From a virus, in IMG/VR virus record IMGVR_UViG_3300020274_000023, positions 1-21,802 of that record: 21,802 nucleotides of DNA; one strand, written 5' to 3'. The notes under the pieces are model-generated. The model was not told the origin of the DNA, made no database searches, and saw only the letters and a program-made list of their open reading frames with translations. This document shows positions 6,018 to 20,394 of the stretch, in pieces. The translations under genes and the position numbers were made by a program. Numbering within the stretch: the stretch's first letter is position 1; every line of letters begins with the position of its first letter.

Positions 6018-6438
6018 CTTTCTTTTTGAATGTAAAGAATCCCTCTGCCCCTTCCCAGTAACCTTTGTCCCATGTGTGGTATTCATTACGATATAATCTT
6101 GCTTGACTCTCTAATGATTTACCTTTATATGTGCATTCTGGTTCGGATGTGCCTTCCCAATAGTGACCACCCTCTACAAATGAGAACACCATATCACATG
6201 CAGGATTCTTTATTATTATAATAGGACAATTTGCACCTAGAACGTGTGGTTCTGTTACCTCCACAGTCTGTTCTCTGTATGGTTCTTTTGAGTAGCTATA
6301 TCTAGACGTAGTGTGGAATCTAGAATCACCTATCTTTTCATGTTTAACTATTATATGTGCCCATTTCGTAGGATTTGATGCTGCCTGTGACCAGTTATCA
6401 AACTCACCCTCGAACCATTCACAAAAACTTTTTTTCAT
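6013..6438 (-). CDS. cpeT: CpeT-like phycobiliprotein bilin lyase homologue
   Basis: This 141-residue protein matches the CpeT/CpcT layout. An N-terminal GEFDNWSQAASNPTKWAHI resembles the family's Gly-Glu-Phe-x-Asn...Gln-Ala...Asn-Pro...Ala-His-Ile block. A Pro-Tyr-Arg triad follows at 53-55, then PACDMVF at 79-85 and ECTYKGKSLES at 101-111, and an Asp-Lys-Gly plus Gly-x-Phe-x-Phe end at 124-138. Cyanobacterial CpeT/CpcT proteins are about 190-200 residues and act in attaching phycoerythrobilin or phycocyanobilin to phycobiliproteins. The phage forms are shorter, and cpeT is a recognised cyanophage auxiliary gene. The gene overlaps the preceding oxygenase gene by ATGA and is last in the accessory cassette. 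Assignment is by remembered family pattern; lyase activity of this copy is unproven. Confidence 0.78.
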   Translation of the reverse strand: MKKSFCEWFEGEFDNWSQAASNPTKWAHIIVKHEKIGDSRFHTTSRYSYSKEPYREQTVEVTEPHVLGANCPIIIIKNPACDMVFSFVEGGHYWEGTSEPECTYKGKSLESQARLYRNEYHTWDKGYWEGAEGFFTFKKKV

Positions 6439-6923
6439 CTTTCAAAGTAACTGATGTTTAAAACAAGACGACGATCTACATCTGTGGCAGGAACCCCTCT
6501 ATGTTCCATATTAGTATCAAATATTAGTGCAGTGTTTGTTCTGCTATAAAACTTCTCGCCTGTCTTGAATTCTGTATAACCGTTGTTATCATTTAAGTAT
6601 AGCACACATGTCTTACTTGGTGTGGATATTTGCCAATCCGTATGCCATTCTTGCTCTGGTGCATTCCTAGGAGTAGCATTTAATTTTACTCTTAATATAG
6701 CAATGACCCCTAACTGCTCAGTTGCAGTCATGAGACATCTATTCATAGTAGGATTCATCGCACTGGAGAACTGATGATCAAAATATAATAAGTTTACATA
6801 TTGCTCTGGTTCTCCAATGGATTGTGTCCAATACCATGGAAAGTTAGGACTATTGAATTGAGCTAGCAATTCAGTAAATGTATAATATTTAAGAAAGTCC
6901 TTGACTACCTTAATCTTGCTCAT
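6435..6923 (-). CDS. 2-oxoglutarate/Fe(II)-dependent oxygenase
   Basis: This 162-residue protein has the facial triad of the 2OG-Fe(II) oxygenase superfamily. His94 and Asp96 sit in EWHTDW and the distal His141 in NMEHRGVP, followed by Arg151/Arg152 in [11 protein letters not shown] as the likely 2-oxoglutarate carboxylate ligand. The strand [17 protein letters not shown] is typical of the prolyl-4-hydroxylase-like branch found widely in marine phages. The substrate is unknown; proposals for phage members include protein hydroxylation and nucleic-acid modification. Its start lies inside the end of the ACP gene (14-base overlap) and its stop overlaps the cpeT-like start, so the three genes are translationally linked. 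All recognisable catalytic residues are present. Confidence 0.85.
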
Positions 6924-7383
6924 CTAATTCTTTTAAATCATTATGTAACTGTTCTGTAGCAGCAATTTGTGGGTTAATGTATTTGCCAGGTGGGTTTGCC
7001 ATGAAAGGACTGTCTGGATGTGGAACCTTAGTTTGCTTGCTCTTGTATGCTGCAGCGTTTATCTTCTTCTTCTTTCCTTTGTTTGCTTTTGCTTTCTTGA
7101 TTGTTTCAATTGCATTACCAACCGTCACGATATCTCCTGCCATTTCGTCAGGGATCTCGATACCGAAGCATTCTTCTAAGAACATGACAAGTTCTACCAT
7201 GTCAAGACTATCTGCTTCAAGGTCAATAAATTTTGTGTCCCATTCTATCTTGTCCATCTCCACTTTATCTCCTAAAGTTTCTTTGATAGCAAGTTGTGCT
7301 ATTTTCAGCATCATGGGTTTAGTGATCTTCTTGGAGTCTCTTAAGATCTCTTTGATTTCACTGTAAGTTTTGTTGTAAGACAT
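6910..7383 (-). CDS. acpP: Acyl carrier protein with N- and C-terminal extensions
   Basis: Residues about 29-97 are a clear acyl carrier protein: [20 protein letters not shown] then [21 protein letters not shown] closely parallel bacterial AcpP, including the Asp-Ser-Leu-Asp site in which Ser59 would carry 4'-phosphopantetheine. Bacterial ACPs are about 77-85 residues. This one is 157, with about 28 extra residues in front and a Lys-rich, probably disordered tail (KANKGKKKK, then [18 protein letters not shown] and an acidic end). It could intercept host acyl or phosphopantetheine flow in fatty-acid or lipid metabolism, or act as a partner for the neighbouring oxygenase; both are inference. 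The start ATG overlaps the preceding stop as TAATG. No synthase or phosphopantetheinyl transferase is encoded in this window. Confidence 0.87.
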
Positions 7384-12736: not shown

Positions 12737-14067
12737 TAGAATTGCGACGTTACGTTATATAGATCAAAGTATGGTGATTCATTGATCTCAGGTTGTGCAA
12801 GTTCACCACCCTCTTGTTGATATGGAGGTGCACTTCCTTCCTCTCCACCCATAGCACCACCAGTTCCTGCAGCAGTAGCGATTTGCTTCTCAGTTTTAGC
12901 ATCTGCACTTGCTCTATTTTCTTTGATGGTCTTATCTGTAAGTTCTGTCAAGTTAGTTACTTGATCACCCTTCGGTGCAAATAAGTTTTTAGCACCACCA
13001 AATGCTTTCATGCCAAGTTTTAAACCCATACCCATGGGTGTCATACCAAATGCTTTGCCAGCTAAACCTTTCAAACCTTTACCTAAACCAGATCCTGCTG
13101 CTTTACCCGCTAATCCTTTTGCACCTTGGAATATCTTGTTACCCGCATTGAATGCCATACCCATTGGCGTCATGCCAAATAATTTTTTAGCAAGACCACC
13201 CTTACGTTTCTTGATAGGTTGCATTGCTCTACCACTACCATCACCAAGACCTATACCATCAGCAGTTCCTGTGTATGGTGCTCTCTTACCATGAGAAGGA
13301 TCACCAGCTCCTGCTAATAGTTTTTGCTGTGGACTGGATCCACTAATTTGTGCTTGATCACCACCACCCTCAGCAGAACCACTAGCTTTGCCCATTATTG
13401 CACTGAGACCTTTCTTTAGAAGAACAGTCCATAGTGGAGGTCCTTCTTTCTTCTTCTTCTTATCGTTATCCTCTTCATCATTAGCAACTTCTTGACTAGC
13501 AGCACCTAACTTGAATGCATTAGTAACCTTAGACATGTTTCTGTTTAAGATCTTAGATGCTTCCTTACTTGGTGCAGGGATTTTCTCTAGCAAGTCAATC
13601 AATGCCACAGCAGCAGACTTAGCGGGTAGTGCTAGTGCGTCACTAAATGCTTTCTTCATCTTAGGATCTAGTTCAAAATCCTTTTCTAATTTTTTGTCTA
13701 TATTTTTCTTCGTTGTGCCTTCATCCATTCCACCGTCTTTCAGTTCAGTAACTGTTCCTGCTTTCGGTTGATTATGTGCATCATCAATCTGCTGCTGTAT
13801 CATTTTCTTTCTGAATACAGGATCTTTTCTCGCTCTCTCTGCCCTTGACATCTTAGAATAGTCAGGAGGTGCAGCAGCACTAAGTAATGGTTGTGTTTTT
13901 GGTGCGGGTAATAAGTTTTGTTTTGGTGCTGCGGGTGAAGATACTGGTGTAGCAGATACATCTATAGTCTGTTGCGACGCAGGAATATCCATCGCCTTCT
14001 GCATGTGCGATTTGCTCAGGACTAAACCTGATCCTACTGATGACATTGCGGGAGGTAATGCTTTCAT
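12736..14067 (-). CDS. Gly/Lys/Ala-rich hub-operon protein, 443 residues
   Basis: I recognise no named family. The N-terminal 120 residues are Pro/Ala/Ser-rich and probably disordered. A helical part follows (about 125-190), then an acidic-to-basic switch (NDEEDNDKKKKKEG). The segment PLWTVLLKKGLSAIMGKA is amphipathic or hydrophobic. Residues about 290-365 are a Gly/Lys/Ala-rich segment with two FGMTPMGM motifs 43 residues apart, and the protein ends in ESPYFDLYNVTSQF. It lies between gp51 plus the peptidase-bearing gene and gp27, where T4 carries 28 and 29, and both ends overlap neighbours as TAATG. A virion hub, tape-measure accessory or membrane-active ejected protein would fit. None is shown. 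Confidence 0.7.
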   Translation of the reverse strand: MKALPPAMSSVGSGLVLSKSHMQKAMDIPASQQTIDVSATPVSSPAAPKQNLLPAPKTQPLLSAAAPPDYSKMSRAERARKDPVFRKKMIQQQIDDAHNQPKAGTVTELKDGGMDEGTTKKNIDKKLEKDFELDPKMKKAFSDALALPAKSAAVALIDLLEKIPAPSKEASKILNRNMSKVTNAFKLGAASQEVANDEEDNDKKKKKEGPPLWTVLLKKGLSAIMGKASGSAEGGGDQAQISGSSPQQKLLAGAGDPSHGKRAPYTGTADGIGLGDGSGRAMQPIKKRKGGLAKKLFGMTPMGMAFNAGNKIFQGAKGLAGKAAGSGLGKGLKGLAGKAFGMTPMGMGLKLGMKAFGGAKNLFAPKGDQVTNLTELTDKTIKENRASADAKTEKQIATAAGTGGAMGGEEGSAPPYQQEGGELAQPEINESPYFDLYNVTSQF

Positions 14068-16004
14068 TATCTTACGTGTGCGAATGTGGTTCGTATGTCA
14101 TAACCAGATGACTTACCATGAGGATCTATGATGGCAATCCTCTCTTTGATGAATGCCCTCTTTTCTTTTTTAGGCATACCATAAGGAACATTGACAACCA
14201 TTCTCTTAGGAACAGGAATGACCACTGGTTTAGCGACGTCTCCACCACCACCTTGTGTTCCTTGTGTGACAGGTTCTTCATTGAGAACATCTTTTGCTCC
14301 TGATGTAGGTGGTGCACTGACATTTCCACCACCACCTGTAGGTGCAGTGCCAGTTCCTGACGATGATTTTTTAGAATCTGCAGGATCAATGTTAGGTATC
14401 CACTTGTTTTTGCCAGGTTTCAACCATTTATCATTATCTTCGCTGTTTATTAAGTCAAAGTGAACAGGATCCTTCTCACCCTGCCATTGGAAACCATACT
14501 TCTTACCATTCTCTCTCATCCATTCGTTTGCTTTACTTCCTGCTGTGATGTCTATTGCCCAACCTTGTCCGTGTGGTGATGCTCCAACTGGTGCAGGATT
14601 GATAGCACGTTCATCGCCAGCTTCTGCAGCACTGATCAATGCTGCCTGTTGTTCTGGACTTCTGTATGATGATGTGACACTTGCGGGTAGGTTGATACCA
14701 TCTTTTGCTGCAGCGTTCACTGCTTTCTTCCATGCTTTTTCAGTGGATGGGTTCAATACAATTGTCTTACCATACATGTCTCGTGATGGATCAGGAGCTT
14801 GTAATCCTTGTTGCTGCTCCTCCGCTTGTTTCTGACCTGGCAACACACCCATATCTTTTGCTGCAAGTGTAGCATCAAGTCCTATGGATACAGCAGTTCC
14901 AATGCCAGGTATTGTAGAAGCGATACCAGATGCTGCTTCGAGCATAGCACCCTTGAAGTCGCCCTTCATCAATCGTTGTCCTGCAAATAATAATCCTGCA
15001 CCCATACCTACAAAAGGTATCTTCTTCAATAATCCTTTACCTAGTGCCTTTGCACCTACCTTTGCTATTGCTTTACCACCTACCTTTGCAGCAATTTTCT
15101 TAGCACCTTTCTTTAGTAATGCCTTTCCTGCCTTACTACCAACATTTGCTAGGGTCTTGCCACCCTTCATTAATTTTCCTGCAGACTTACCAACTTTACC
15201 TAGACCTTTGCCTAGTTTACCCATCTTACCTAGAGCTTTGCCCGCAGTTTTACCTTTCTTACTTAAAAATACTTTTGCCTTTCTACCAAGTCTAGACTTA
15301 CGAAAGTTTTTAAATTTATTAAAAGTTTTTCCTAGACTCTGTAGGATATTTCCACCACTACTCTTCTTATCACCACTCTTCTTACCTTGCTCTGGTGCTT
15401 TCATAGAAGGTTGTGCAGATGCAGCAACACCAGTGCTAAAGTTCTCTAATTTTTGTTTTAATCCTATCTTAAATGCAGGTTTTGGTGTATCAGATATACC
15501 AAATATACTTTTTAATCTATTAGCTTCTGATAATACACTTGCCCTTGCAGGAGATGCGGGTAGTGTCTGTAAGAAACCTTGCGATGAACTTATGAGTAAC
15601 GATGCACCTTCTTTATATACTGCCTCAATTGATTTACTAAACTTTGATAGTGGGATGATTGCTTCTGGTTCACCACCCTCACCAATCTCTGCTACTGTGC
15701 GTCTTTTTGTAATAGCACCTTCCTTGAGACTTACCGATGGTTTCTTCTCATAAGGTAAGTTTCTTTGTTGTGCTACAGTCTTTATTGTTTCTAATACTAC
15801 TTCTTCATATCTCTGATCTTCTTCTTTAGGAGGTCTTTCTATTACATTTGCCTGACCATATGACGTATCTACTTCTGATATAGGAATAGGTGCTATAGCA
15901 GGAACAACTCTTGCTCCTTGATTATTTGCAATGGCACCCGCAGCTCCAACAGCAAGTGACTTTGCTGCCTTCTTAAAAAAATTAATAACTGCTTTGCCTT
16001 TCAT
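14067..16004 (-). CDS. Hub/tape-measure-like protein with M15 (VanY-type) peptidase domain
   Basis: This is a 645-residue multidomain protein. Residues 1-200 are mixed. Residues about 225-325 are a Lys/Gly/Ala-rich helical run. Residues 329-385 hold hydrophobic stretches (IPFVGMGAGLLFAG and IASTIPGIGTAVSIGL) able to touch membrane. Residues about 411-540 form an M15 peptidase: SYRSPEQQ, then SPHGQGWAID with His478 and Asp485, and DPVHFD with His515 and Asp512 at the position of the usual catalytic Glu. M15 enzymes cut peptidoglycan stem peptides using zinc. In virions this would open the wall at DNA entry, a job T4 gives to the gp5 lysozyme. The tail is Gly/Pro-rich. It follows gp51 (TAATG). 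Whether it is the true tape measure (T4 gp29 analogue) is inference. Confidence 0.8.
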   Translation of the reverse strand: MKGKAVINFFKKAAKSLAVGAAGAIANNQGARVVPAIAPIPISEVDTSYGQANVIERPPKEEDQRYEEVVLETIKTVAQQRNLPYEKKPSVSLKEGAITKRRTVAEIGEGGEPEAIIPLSKFSKSIEAVYKEGASLLISSSQGFLQTLPASPARASVLSEANRLKSIFGISDTPKPAFKIGLKQKLENFSTGVAASAQPSMKAPEQGKKSGDKKSSGGNILQSLGKTFNKFKNFRKSRLGRKAKVFLSKKGKTAGKALGKMGKLGKGLGKVGKSAGKLMKGGKTLANVGSKAGKALLKKGAKKIAAKVGGKAIAKVGAKALGKGLLKKIPFVGMGAGLLFAGQRLMKGDFKGAMLEAASGIASTIPGIGTAVSIGLDATLAAKDMGVLPGQKQAEEQQQGLQAPDPSRDMYGKTIVLNPSTEKAWKKAVNAAAKDGINLPASVTSSYRSPEQQAALISAAEAGDERAINPAPVGASPHGQGWAIDITAGSKANEWMRENGKKYGFQWQGEKDPVHFDLINSEDNDKWLKPGKNKWIPNIDPADSKKSSSGTGTAPTGGGGNVSAPPTSGAKDVLNEEPVTQGTQGGGGDVAKPVVIPVPKRMVVNVPYGMPKKEKRAFIKERIAIIDPHGKSSGYDIRTTFAHVR

Positions 16005-16168: not shown

Positions 16169-16186
16169 GCCCTCATGAAAGAGGGC
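16169..16186 (-). promoter_or_regulatory. Hairpin sequestering the gp51 ribosome binding site
   Basis: On the minus strand GCCCTC and GAGGGC form a perfect 6-bp stem around a 6-base loop (TTTCAT). The right arm is the gp51 Shine-Dalgarno, 3-4 bases before its ATG. The left arm begins with the last base of the gp26 stop codon (TAG, 16188-16186). A ribosome terminating on gp26 would cover and open the left arm, freeing the site. There is no U-run after it, so it is not a terminator. Confidence 0.6.
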
Positions 16187-16884
16187 TATACGAAAAAATC
16201 AGATAAACCTTCTAATACAACCTCGTTTGATACCTTAGTCTTAGGGTTTTTAACCTTCAATACATGCCTGAGTGATGGCATAGTCTCAAAAAATTCTTGA
16301 ATAGAATCGAATTGTGCACTTGTAAGTGACTCTACCCACCCTTTAGATTCCTCTAAAGTAAATGAACTATAATCCTGTTCACCCACATAAACTCTCTTGA
16401 TGCATTTTGCCATCAATTCGTATGGATCTGGTTCATCTTTAGTAAAGTTAACCTGAGTAAAGTAATCAAGGTTTGGATACTTCATCTCAACGGTTATATC
16501 ATCAGATAACTTGATAACGTTAGTATGACCTTTGGGAAAGTTTACTTTGACATCATTGACCATAAACTTGACGTCAACTTCAGTCTCACCGTCATCTGCA
16601 CATGTAACTTTCATCTCAATCTCTTCACTGATTGATCTAGCACGTATCTGTAGAAACAAATACTCTATATCAAACAAAGATAACTCACTTAGTTTTACCT
16701 TTGTTATTAGACAATTATCTATTGTTTTAGTTATAGCGTCTAATATCTGCTGTTGGTCATCATTCTCTAGTGCCAGTATTAATAACTTCTGCTCTTTTAC
16801 AAGGAACGGTCTATACTTTACTCTCTTCTTGGTAGAAGGCACAGTCAACGTATAGATTGGCGTTGCAATATCAGGTAATGGCAT
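16186..16884 (-). CDS. 26: Baseplate hub subunit, gp26-like
   Basis: This 232-residue protein (T4 gp26 is 208) opens with a beta strand ending LPSTKKRVKYRPFLVKEQKL. That is the hallmark of the T4 baseplate hub family, in which a short strand, a Lys/Arg-rich turn and Arg-Pro-(Phe/Ile)-Leu-x-Lys-Glu precede a helix. A helical region (LILALENDDQQQILDAITKTI) and beta-rich middle follow, ending in NPKTKVSNEVVLEGLSDFFV. In T4 gp26 is required for hub formation. It lies 31 bases after the gp54-like gene and 20 bases before gp51. I see no Shine-Dalgarno in the AT-rich 31-base gap, so it may depend on transcript from the late promoter at 17625-17632. Confidence 0.85.
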   Translation of the reverse strand: MPLPDIATPIYTLTVPSTKKRVKYRPFLVKEQKLLILALENDDQQQILDAITKTIDNCLITKVKLSELSLFDIEYLFLQIRARSISEEIEMKVTCADDGETEVDVKFMVNDVKVNFPKGHTNVIKLSDDITVEMKYPNLDYFTQVNFTKDEPDPYELMAKCIKRVYVGEQDYSSFTLEESKGWVESLTSAQFDSIQEFFETMPSLRHVLKVKNPKTKVSNEVVLEGLSDFFV

Positions 16885-16915: not shown

Positions 16916-17599
16916 TCAATCAAGGATCAAATGACTGTATTCGTAGTAGAATCCAACAGTTACCTTAACGAGTTGTGCTGCCTGTGATGAGTATGGTATT
17001 GATGCTACAGTGTATGGATAGGCGTTGACCAATCTTACATTCCACGGGTTAGCATAAGTATCTTTTTTTGAGTTACCGTTCTCATCTTTTGTGCCAGCTA
17101 TAGTTCCATCATATTTCTCCAGTTTAGATATGAACATGTCACATGCGTAGTCTTCATAGTAATTAAATGCTGATGCTCTTCTATATGACTGATCTCCATA
17201 GAAATTGACAGGATCAGGTGCGACAGTGTTTGATGTAAAATCTTGCCATGCTCTAAAAAATCTGAGTGGCATTGATGTTCCATCTAAAAAGAAACTGACA
17301 TCTAATTCATTGTATACTTTATTAGTTGCTATCTTTTGTGTAATACCTTTGTGCACTGACTTAACATCAAATGCTGAGTATGTCACACCTGGCAACTGTA
17401 TTTCATTGCATAACAACTGTAGGTTCAACCCATCACCGTTGTCAGTTAGTTGTAAAAAGTCTTCACCTAATTGATTTTCAAAAAATTTTCCTAGTTTATC
17501 TTTCTTATTAAATGAGAATTGGTATAGGTTAGACGCAGAGATTCCACCAGACTTTCCAATAGCCTGCATAAAATTCTGTAGTCCTCTTGCGGTTGCCAT
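16916..17599 (-). CDS. 54: Tail-tube initiator-like protein (gp54/gp19 tube fold)
   Basis: This 227-residue protein shows the T4 tube-protein pattern. An N-terminal helix ends in GISASNLYQFSF, followed by EIQLPGVTYSAFDV, then the core VYNELDVSFFLDGTSMPLRF with Phe-Arg-Ala-Trp-Gln-Asp, a YYEDYACDMFI strand, and a C-terminal NPWNVRLVNAYPYTVASIPY followed by VTVGFYYEYS. gp19, gp48 and gp54 of T4 share this fold. T4 gp54 is longer (320). The opening and the place beside gp48 and the hub genes favour gp54, the ring that starts tube polymerisation. The real gp19 normally sits next to the sheath gene, which is not here. It starts with ATG at 17599, AAGG 6 bases upstream, and a TATAAATA late promoter 26 bases away. 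It heads the hub operon. Confidence 0.75.
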   Translation of the reverse strand: MATARGLQNFMQAIGKSGGISASNLYQFSFNKKDKLGKFFENQLGEDFLQLTDNGDGLNLQLLCNEIQLPGVTYSAFDVKSVHKGITQKIATNKVYNELDVSFFLDGTSMPLRFFRAWQDFTSNTVAPDPVNFYGDQSYRRASAFNYYEDYACDMFISKLEKYDGTIAGTKDENGNSKKDTYANPWNVRLVNAYPYTVASIPYSSQAAQLVKVTVGFYYEYSHLILD

Positions 17600-17604
17600 A
17601 AATA
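17597..17604 (+). promoter_or_regulatory. Probable late promoter for gp4-gp53 (CATAAATA)
   Basis: CATAAATA differs from the T4 late element TATAAATA in only its first base. Its end lies 29 bases before the GTG proposed for gp4, the same distance as the clear late promoter at 6010-6017. Its CAT is the complement of the gp54-like start codon. No other promoter is visible for this plus-strand operon. Confidence 0.55.
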
Positions 17605-17624
17605 ACCTTATGGTTTGATATATG

Positions 17625-17632
17625 TATTTATA
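17625..17632 (-). promoter_or_regulatory. T4-type late promoter for the hub operon (TATAAATA)
   Basis: This is an exact TATAAATA on the minus strand, 26 bases before the gp54-like ATG. Initiation is expected near 17619, followed by a leader carrying AAGG (17606-17610) before the ATG. The element touches the GTG start proposed for gp4 on the other strand. It faces the plus-strand late element, so the 5' ends of the two transcripts should overlap by roughly 10 bases. Confidence 0.8.
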
Positions 17633-18067
17633 GTGACTTACAAGGGTAAATACCGAGTAAAAAATTACAAGAAGTATAAAGGCGATCCTACGGGTGTAGT
17701 ATATCGCTCCTTGTGGGAACGAAAGTTTATGAAATACTGTGATAGCAGTCCTAATGTAATAGAATGGTGGTCAGAAGAACTTGCTATACCATACAAAGAT
17801 CCCGTTACAAAGAAGTGGCGTCGTTACTTTCCAGATTTCTGGATGAGAGTTAGAGAGAAAGACGGGACTATAAAAGCATATCTTATTGAGGTTAAACCTA
17901 AAAGACAGGTCGAAGGTCCTAAACCTCAGAAGAGAAAAACAAAGGCATACATCACAGAAGTAATGACCTTTGCCACCAACAAAGCAAAATGGGAGGCAGC
18001 AAATGACTACTGCAGGGACAGGCTTTGGGAATTCAAACTCGTTACCGAACGAGAGCTCAAGGTTTGA
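17633..18067 (+). CDS. 4: Head completion protein gp4 (PD-(D/E)XK nuclease-like)
   Basis: This is a close match to T4 gp4 (about 150 residues). From the GTG at 17633 the product is 144 residues beginning MTYKGKYRVKNYKKYKGDP, the usual family start; TTG at 17615 would add six residues but is less likely. Motifs in order are VVYRSLWE with Glu29, WWSEELAIPY, a Tyr-Phe-Pro-Asp-Phe with Asp68, and LIEVKPK with Glu86 and Lys88. These fit the TnsA-type PD-(D/E)XK nuclease core. NKAKWEAA and VTERELKV close the protein. In T4 gp4 acts after packaging to complete the head. The only late element I see is CATAAATA at 17597. The next gene begins inside its last 65 bases. Confidence 0.9.
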   Translation: MTYKGKYRVKNYKKYKGDPTGVVYRSLWERKFMKYCDSSPNVIEWWSEELAIPYKDPVTKKWRRYFPDFWMRVREKDGTIKAYLIEVKPKRQVEGPKPQKRKTKAYITEVMTFATNKAKWEAANDYCRDRLWEFKLVTERELKV

Positions 18068-18467
18068 CACATTGATTGAGCAAGTAAAAGGTAAAAAGAT
18101 ATCTAAATCAAAATTAAGAGAGGAAGTATTCAATATACTACTAGATGATGCGACTGAGCAACCTCAAGCAGACAAATACTATACATTTGAGTATGATCCC
18201 AAATACAAAGATCAAATGAAAGTGTGGGATGAGTATCCAATTGTCTACGCCATGGAGTTTAAGAAGAACAATTTGCTTGGTGCGAACATACATCACATCA
18301 AGGGAACAAACTCCAGATTAAAGGCACTAAATAATAAAAGGTTTCCTAAATCTACATTACGTTACTATATACCTAGAAGAGCAGACCGCATCTTTTTCGA
18401 GATATCAGAGAGTGAAGTGCAACTACTGAGCACACTACCCATAGAAAAATTTCATTACAATAGATAA
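18003..18467 (+). CDS. Conserved T4-like phage protein between gp4 and gp48, function unknown
   Basis: I place the start at ATG 18003, six bases after a strong GGGAGG (17991-17996), rather than at the upstream TTG; this gives 154 residues and a 65-base overlap with gp4. The central segment YYTFEYDPKYKDQMKVWDEY, then PIVYAMEF, LLGANIHHIKG and the following SRLKALNN form a motif found in unnamed proteins of many T4-like phages (Tyr-Thr-Phe-x-Tyr-Asp-Pro ... Leu-Gly-x-Asn-x-His-His/Tyr). The first 45 residues look helical and charged. I cannot assign a biochemical role. Co-expression with gp4, gp48 and gp53 suggests head-neck or baseplate assembly. The stop overlaps the gp48 start (TAATG). Confidence 0.72.
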   Translation: MTTAGTGFGNSNSLPNESSRFDTLIEQVKGKKISKSKLREEVFNILLDDATEQPQADKYYTFEYDPKYKDQMKVWDEYPIVYAMEFKKNNLLGANIHHIKGTNSRLKALNNKRFPKSTLRYYIPRRADRIFFEISESEVQLLSTLPIEKFHYNR

Positions 18468-19777
18468 TGACTAGTCAAAAAGTAATTGAATACCCCACAG
18501 GTTTATCTGGCATACCTTATGCCTCTTTCCTAGAGATAGAGAGGTATAGTTATGATGAAGCTATGCAGACTGTTGCAAAAGAACAGAACGATGCATTTGG
18601 TTCATACAATAGAAGTAAGATTGCTCCTGCTGTAAGAGGTGTTTCAGAGTTAGCAAATAATGCTTATGGTTCTGGTGACTGGAATGCAAGAAATAACAGT
18701 AAAGAGATTGGAACTGGGAAGTTTGCATCAGCAGATGCAGATGAGCAAGGGGTATTAGGAATTGGAAAAAAATATTATACATTGGATGGAGATCCAAACC
18801 AAAAAGTTAAATTACCGAATGGTGAGATAACAACTTTGGGTGCATTACAGAAACAGAAGAACGAGAAAACAAAGAGAAAGTTAGAAAAAGGTTTACTGTC
18901 ATCTTTCTGTCATCTACCATTACCAAATGAGTTTCAATATAAGTATGGTGCAGACTGGAGTAACGAATTTAAGTTAGGAACTTTAGCATTAGCAGCAGAC
19001 AACATCGGTAGATTTGCAGCAGTTGCAGGAACTGGTGCAGTTGTAGGTGGTGCAGGAGCATATGCCTTAGACAAACTTACATCAGCAACATCTCTAACTG
19101 ACGTAGCAGGAAAAGTTGGTGGAGTAAATATTGACAAGATAGTTGGTGGTGCAGCGAAAGGTGCAGGGACAGCGATAAATCCTTTTGGAGTTAACAGTCA
19201 AATAAATCCTAAGAATATTGCAGGATTAGCAGGACTAGCACCAAACGAAAACTCAATACAATTCTTTGAAAGAATGCAAGGTAGAGAGTTTAGTTTTAGA
19301 TTTGAATTAGCAGCAAGAAATAAGAAGGAGAGTTCAAAAGTAGAAGCTATAATTGAGTGGTTCAAACGTGGTATGCATCCTAACGCAAAGAATGGTAAAG
19401 GTAGTGCAGTTCTATTGACATTCCCAGACGTATTCTTACTGACTCCTAAGTTTGTAAAATGCGATGAGCAAGGAACTCCAATACCTAATGGAATTATCCA
19501 ACATCCTATGATGCCTAAGACAAAACTATGTGCATTGACAGGACTAACTATAAACACTACACCATTTGGTCAGTTACAAACAGTGTTTGATGGAACTATT
19601 CCTATGGTTACTATGGAATTGATGTTCAAAGAAACAACAAAACTTACACGTGTGGATATGGAAGGTTCTGCATATACAGACAGAGTGGGAGTATTTGGTA
19701 AAGGTGTTATCTCTGGCACAGAAGGAACATTCATCAGAGATACAGATGATGTCGGCAACCCTAACGTTACATTCTAA
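18467..19777 (+). CDS. 48: Baseplate tail-tube cap protein gp48
   Basis: This 436-residue protein (T4 gp48 is 364) begins with PYASFLEIERYSYDEAM, the typical opening of cyanophage gp48. Its C-terminal half has the tube-type core: FFERMQGREFSFRFELAARN, a helix SSKVEAIIEWFKRGMHP, LLTFPDVFLLTPKF, LCALTGLTINTTPFGQLQ, and a final Pro-Met-Val-Thr-Met-Glu-Leu-Met-Phe-Lys-Glu. Between residues 180 and 260 there is a Gly/Ala-rich hydrophobic insertion (AAVAGTGAVVGGAGAYALD). gp48 caps the hub and, with gp54, seeds the gp19 tube. It is joined to the preceding gene by TAATG and is followed after two bases by gp53. Its partner gp54-like protein is on the opposite strand. Confidence 0.83.
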   Translation: MTSQKVIEYPTGLSGIPYASFLEIERYSYDEAMQTVAKEQNDAFGSYNRSKIAPAVRGVSELANNAYGSGDWNARNNSKEIGTGKFASADADEQGVLGIGKKYYTLDGDPNQKVKLPNGEITTLGALQKQKNEKTKRKLEKGLLSSFCHLPLPNEFQYKYGADWSNEFKLGTLALAADNIGRFAAVAGTGAVVGGAGAYALDKLTSATSLTDVAGKVGGVNIDKIVGGAAKGAGTAINPFGVNSQINPKNIAGLAGLAPNENSIQFFERMQGREFSFRFELAARNKKESSKVEAIIEWFKRGMHPNAKNGKGSAVLLTFPDVFLLTPKFVKCDEQGTPIPNGIIQHPMMPKTKLCALTGLTINTTPFGQLQTVFDGTIPMVTMELMFKETTKLTRVDMEGSAYTDRVGVFGKGVISGTEGTFIRDTDDVGNPNVTF

Positions 19778-19779
19778 AC

Positions 19780-20394
19780 ATGTTAAAAAAATTACCATCA
19801 TTAGCATATAACTTCTCAACGAATCCACTTGATGCGGATTATCTAATCGTCAAAAATATATGGAGACGAGGTGAGGTTCTAAGTGCATTTAAAAATCAAA
19901 CAACATTGTTTACTGAGGTCAATGTAAAAGATGGAGAGAAACCAGAAGATGTTGCAACTAGAATGTATAGAAATCCATTTTACAACTGGACTATACTTAT
20001 TATTAATGACATCACTGATGTGTATAGTCAATGGCCACGATCACAATTTCAGTTAGAAGAGTTTATCAATAACAAATACGATAATGCACAAGCAACTAAG
20101 CATCATGTAACAACAGAAGTTAGAGATGCTAATAATAATATTATTGTTCCTGCGGGTAAAGTTGTAGCATCTAACTATCAAGTGTCATACTACAATGGTA
20201 ACAACACCGTAACAGCTACACCTGTTGTGTCAATCAGCAATGCACAATATGAATCAGAACTAAATTCTAAGAAACAAAATATACAAGTTGTAAAACCAGA
20301 ACTAATAGAAGATTTTGTAGACGTATATGCAGATATACTAGCGAAGGGAAATATATCAGTGGTTGGTATATCAGCGTCAGATATAAACATGTAA
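19780..20394 (+). CDS. 53: Baseplate wedge protein gp53
   Basis: This 204-residue protein (T4 gp53 is 196) carries the family pattern LAYNFSTNPLDADYLIVKNI near the start, then a Glu-Lys-Pro-Glu-Asp-Val-Ala motif (LysM-like), MYRNPFYNWTILIINDITDV and a YSQWPRSQFQLEEFINNKY stretch, where Trp-Pro, Gln-Leu and the closing Asn-Lys-Tyr are conserved. gp53 attaches to the wedge heterocomplex in T4 and is needed for wedges to join around the hub. It is the last gene of the plus-strand operon, two bases after gp48. It ends only a few bases from the terminator of gp32 coming the other way, so there is little room for its own terminator; I see no U-run on this strand. Confidence 0.85.
   Translation: MLKKLPSLAYNFSTNPLDADYLIVKNIWRRGEVLSAFKNQTTLFTEVNVKDGEKPEDVATRMYRNPFYNWTILIINDITDVYSQWPRSQFQLEEFINNKYDNAQATKHHVTTEVRDANNNIIVPAGKVVASNYQVSYYNGNNTVTATPVVSISNAQYESELNSKKQNIQVVKPELIEDFVDVYADILAKGNISVVGISASDINM

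Follow-up and report, generated by a model that had tools for sequence, protein, structure and literature searches.

Two predicted T4-type late promoters lie face-to-face in the divergent gap upstream of gp4 in a cyanomyovirus

The divergent gap upstream of gp4 was analysed in a 21,802-nucleotide stretch of viral DNA (the window; IMG/VR record IMGVR_UViG_3300020274_000023, a 21.8-kb record that makes up its entire assembly). It very probably holds two gp55-type late promoters that are packed face-to-face into 33 bp by the usual promoter-to-start distance and that would be mutually exclusive if both are active. This conclusion is based on the sequence and position of the octamers, a calibration of the motif, deep conservation, and the persistence of the pair beside different partner genes; from these we infer the exact start sites, the use of the promoters late in infection, and their mutual exclusion. 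The pair is genuine and conserved, and amounts to a modest variation within a promoter type already known.

Table 1. Features of the gp4 junction and its flanking operons (positions in the window)
Feature	Position	Strand	Basis or role
Plus octamer CATAAATA	17597..17604	+	Late-promoter match for the gp4-gp2-gp48-gp53 operon
Minus octamer TATAAATA	17625..17632	-	Late-promoter match for the tail-tube/gp26/gp51 hub operon
20-bp spacer	17605..17624	.	Contains both predicted transcription starts
Tail-tube-like protein (T4-GC 10; "gp54-like" in the sequence-only reading), first gene of minus operon	16916..17599	-	PHROG 45 tail tube, E=3e-33; PF23849; P-HM1 annotation T4-GC 10
gp26 baseplate hub subunit, second gene of minus operon	16186..16884	-	PHROG 150; PF12322
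gp4 head completion/closure protein, GTG start, first gene of plus operon	17633..18067	+	PHROG 218 (head closure), E=6e-58; the P-HM1 annotation starts gp4 at the aligned GTG
gp2 DNA end protector, overlaps the end of gp4	18003..18467	+	PHROG 429
gp48 baseplate tail tube cap	18467..19777	+	PHROG 230
gp53 baseplate wedge	19780..20394	+	PHROG 232; PF11246

The virus of the window is a cyanomyovirus close to the Prochlorococcus phages P-HM1 and MED4-213, with 78% DNA identity over the stretch and the same gene order around the junction. An earlier reading of the letters alone (the sequence-only reading) had described two operons diverging from this point, and PHROG and Pfam matches showed its account of their contents to be essentially right: the tail-tube-like and gp26 hub genes on the minus strand, and gp4, gp2, the gp48 cap and the gp53 wedge on the plus strand (Table 1). 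The last 65 bases of gp4 are shared with gp2 in another frame, and P-HM1 is annotated likewise.

The two facing octamers were read directly from the sequence and span 36 bases (17597-17632). The plus strand across them is CATAAATA-ACCTTATGGTTTGATATATG-TATTTATA, followed by the gp4 GTG at 17633-17635; TATTTATA gives the plus-strand letters of the minus octamer, which itself reads from 17632 to 17625. Between the plus octamer and the gp4 GTG there are 28 bases, and between the minus octamer and the ATG of the tail-tube-like gene there are 25, close to the 26-29 bases of the sequence-only reading. That reading had also embedded each octamer in the opposing start codon. This was correct for the plus octamer, in which CAT (17597-17599) complements the ATG of the minus-strand gene, but not for the minus octamer, which adjoins the GTG without containing it. 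Both octamers contain the opposing ATG in the sister lineages L027, L031, L036, and L048. Where the sister lineages have the gp4 ATG, the window clade has ATA, and gp4 starts one codon later, at GTG (17630-17635). The A that spoils this ATG supplies the minus octamer with the consensus T, as against C, as its first letter, and the change may represent a trade-off between start codon and promoter. No clear Shine-Dalgarno sequence was found in the gp4 leader of the window clade.

The T4 late octamer lies about one helical turn upstream of the transcription start, its first base being at −13 (PMC2988020). By T4 numbering (octamer at −13 to −6), transcription is predicted to start at about 17610 on the plus strand and about 17619 on the minus strand, and the first 10 or so nucleotides of both transcripts would therefore be complementary, the same overlap of 5' ends as proposed earlier. 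The octamers are opposed across 20 bp, and their predicted polymerase footprints overlap.

The two octamers agree with what is known of late promoters in these phages. The late promoter published for cyanophages is NATAAATA, and all cyanomyoviruses have been reported to carry g55, g33, and g45 (PMC2984593). T4-type late promoters require gp55 and are activated by gp45 and gp33; the genes for these three proteins lie outside the window. Judged by its letters, the minus octamer is an exact T4-type late octamer, and the plus octamer is of the NATAAATA type. The motif was calibrated in P-HM1, S-RIM2, S-BM3, and P-SSM2 (L297-L315, L325-L346), with a simple gene caller for the genome-wide controls. 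ATAAATA and CTAAATA were 33- to 46-fold and 19- to 41-fold denser, respectively, upstream of gene starts than elsewhere. The corresponding values were 0- to 3.3-fold for the rearranged controls ATAATAA and CTAATAA, and 3- to 14-fold for AATAAAT and CATAAAT, the latter being itself part of the motif. Since CTAAATA is placed nearly as strongly as ATAAATA in cyanophages, their late motif is better written [A/C]TAAATA. In T2, ATAAATA alone was enriched upstream of genes, and CTAAATA was not. The modal distance from motif to start codon was 20-29 nt in the four cyanophage genomes, and the 28 and 25 nt found in the window, upstream of structural and assembly genes, fit this range.

ATAAATA occurs in the window at chance frequency (6 seen, 6.3 expected). 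The number of octamers therefore proves nothing and was discarded as evidence; position and orientation carry the significance. A facing pair of the form TAAATA-N15-40-TATTTA occurs once in the window, at the gp4 junction. When TAAATA-N5-35-TATTTA was searched for in whole genomes, the gp4 junction was the single place in P-HM1, MED4-213, Syn30, S-RIM2, S-BM3, and ACG-2014f, and one of several places in P-HM2, P-SSM2, and P-SSM7, so that 9 of the 11 cyanophages examined have the pair there. No such match was present at gp4 in S-SSM7 and S-CAM1, which keep the plus octamer without a consensus minus octamer; the minus operon of these phages therefore dispenses with the minus octamer or uses another site. 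In a larger set of 290 gp4 junctions in 97 sequence clusters, with gp4 starts set from protein alignment and annotation, the pair was present in 83 clusters, compared with 0.6 expected from dinucleotide shuffles, and absent from 14. The 83 clusters are related by descent and are not independent events, though the rest of the junction differs widely among them. The distance between the hexamers ranged from 7 to 26 bp, and was 15-26 bp in nearly all relatives. The pair therefore recurs in most of the related cyanophages.

The octamers are also conserved further than the start codons demand. The 16 octamer columns were all invariant among 18 distinct close junctions, whereas 16 of 39 flanking columns in the tail-tube gene and 12 of 30 in gp4 varied. 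In distant lineages in which the plus octamer is clear of the opposing ATG (CACTCTAAATA, CCTAAATA), the TAAATA core is kept. A plus octamer conserved no further than its start codon requires would have refuted the sequence-only reading; the outcome instead favoured the promoter. Across the 97 clusters, the minus octamer (TATTTATG) includes the gp4 ATG in 41, and in 7 further clusters with TATTTATTTATG it does so with the core repeated; the plus octamer includes a CAT in 11. These results bear on the reading that one octamer is active and the other is maintained by the start codon and A+T richness. It draws on the chance frequency of ATAAATA in the whole window and on the CAT of the plus octamer, which is fixed by the start codon; however, five further bases of the octamer are invariant and the hexamer is kept where the opposing start codon is elsewhere, and we consider this reading improbable. 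Both octamers, with a motif and distance that match the cyanophage calibration, are accordingly predicted to be late promoters, as had been suggested from the letters alone.

In many lineages, the sense strand carries the hexamer TATTTA immediately before the start codon, where it might instead provide an AU-rich leader as a context for translation initiation. In five genomes, TATTTA was found within 22 nt upstream of the start codon at 12 of 1033 tandem genes (21 of 1033 for the rearranged control) compared with 11 of 38 divergent genes, and TAAATA is kept at varied distances from the opposing start. The reading of TATTTA as a translation signal was rejected by this tandem-versus-divergent control, and the chance that it is right appears minimal. 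The octamers are also arranged as an inverted repeat whose arms could pair in a transcript spanning them, so the repeat might act as an RNA hairpin or a protein operator rather than as two promoters. The predicted folding, however, was within the range of shuffled sequences (z −1.25), on which ground the hairpin was rejected. In addition, the spacer varies in length, each arm separately fits the late-promoter motif and distance, and no covariation was seen between the bases beside the cores (CTCTAAATA occurs with TATTTAG, and CCTAAATA with TATTTATG). A hairpin or operator is therefore very unlikely to explain the repeat.

Within the close clade, only columns 17605-17608 and 17618 of the spacer are variable, and 17609-17624 is nearly invariant. 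The latter segment holds ATG GTT TGA at the predicted plus start, and neither promoter clearly explains its near-invariance. A related TATG..TGA block is found upstream of gp4 in other lineages.

The gene opposite gp4 differs between lineages while the pair stays. In P-HM1, P-SSM2, S-SSM7, and S-BM3, a tail-tube-type gene is opposite gp4, and gp4 runs with gp48 and gp53. In S-RIM2, Syn30, and P-SSM7, gp48 is opposite gp4, which runs with the hub genes. The pair was present in 42 of 45 clusters with gp48 on the left, 27 of 33 with the tube gene on the left, and 7 of 9 others. At least 10 partner changes were counted on a FastTree phylogeny of gp4, a figure that rests on a rough assignment of partners and shows only that the partners differ. 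Inversion of gp4 together with the promoter pair is a candidate event that would account for the differing partners. A more far-reaching proposal is that the pair and gp4 form a flippable T4-like module inverted between baseplate arms, with the orientation of the clamp picking the direction of firing, so that replication geometry would set the hub-to-cap ratio; this we regard as speculative and unlikely.

Facing late octamers also occur in other T4-type phages, between genes 53 and 4 of the E. coli phages T2 and RB18 (7 bp between hexamers), Klebsiella phage KP179 (10 bp), and Acinetobacter phage Berthold (15 bp), where gp4 directly follows a gap of 47-53 bp. These junctions differ from that of the window in their partner, gene 53, in the tighter spacing of the hexamers, and in octamers placed against or close to the Shine-Dalgarno sequence instead of the start codon. 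In the window, the divergent partner of gp4 is the tail-tube-like gene and not gene 53, and in S-RIM2 and Syn30 it is gp48. Vibrio phage Va3 has a back-to-back arrangement; overlap is therefore not obligatory. RB43 and K490 have a minus-strand match only, and in Aeromonas phage 31, in which gp4 is in tandem, no pair was found at gp4. T2 has a second facing late pair (PV648364.1 139051-139082; L322:19051-19082) between a minus-strand gene of 503 aa and a plus-strand gene of 226 aa separated by a 50-bp gap.

In the explanation that we favour, two T4-type (gp55-dependent) late promoters would face each other within the 33-bp gap of divergent late operons, each with the customary spacing to its own gene (28 nt to gp4 and 25 nt to the tail-tube gene). 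Since this distance is about the length of the gap, each octamer would come to lie on or against the start codon of the other operon. With polymerase footprints almost wholly overlapping, only one direction would be open at any one time, and each polymerase would have to clear through the other promoter. We take the main cause to be compaction under a fixed promoter-to-start distance. Proportional and mutually limiting output of the low-copy hub and head-completion proteins is plausible as a consequence rather than a demonstrated purpose.

Selection may instead have acted on the overlap itself, as a regulatory device in which competition fixes the ratio of hub (minus) to head-completion, cap, and wedge (plus) products, or in which the orientation of the gp45 clamp chooses the promoter. 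This is compatible with the packing explanation and differs from it in the target of selection. The retention of the pair through changes of partner gene and across host groups is in keeping with such a device. In T4, moreover, the polarity with which late promoters are activated depends on which strand is nicked and on how the clamp is oriented, and a late promoter needs its primer-template junction to lie downstream (PMC2988020); by analogy, oppositely oriented clamps would serve the two facing promoters. However, the variation of the hexamer distance argues against one tuned geometry, and Va3 separates the promoters. We therefore hold a regulatory device to be possible but rather doubtful.

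Overlapping face-to-face or bidirectional promoters with transcriptional interference are known in bacteria, where opposed initiation takes place within one polymerase footprint at sigma70 −10 and −35 elements. The pair in the window resembles these in its predicted opposed initiation within one footprint, but is expected to involve a phage sigma factor and a sliding clamp. It shares its octamer, its distance to the gene, and its association with late structural operons with the T4-type gp55 late promoters (TATAAATA, and NATAAATA of the cyanophages S-PM2 and Syn9; PMC2984593, PMC2988020); it differs from them in that two face each other and overlap or touch the opposing start codons, and in that the cyanophage motif includes CTAAATA too. 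No description of face-to-face late promoters in T4 or cyanophages was found in the literature searched, which covered non-subscription papers and is weak evidence of absence. RNA-seq of P-HM2 infection exists (PMC5082946). The junction is an example of deeply conserved overlapping codes, in which a short stretch would be the promoter of one operon and the start-codon context of the other in both directions, and the pair offers a natural, compact test of direction choice in replication-coupled, clamp-activated late transcription. The cyanophage late-promoter motif is also extended, to [A/C]TAAATA.

Elsewhere on the minus strand of the window, the large late protein encoded at 14067-16004 combines a VanY/M15 peptidase domain with a stretch like tape-measure proteins. 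By eye, 6910-7383 and 6435-6923 (minus strand) are acyl-carrier-protein-like and 2-oxoglutarate dioxygenase-like reading frames, respectively, among structural genes.
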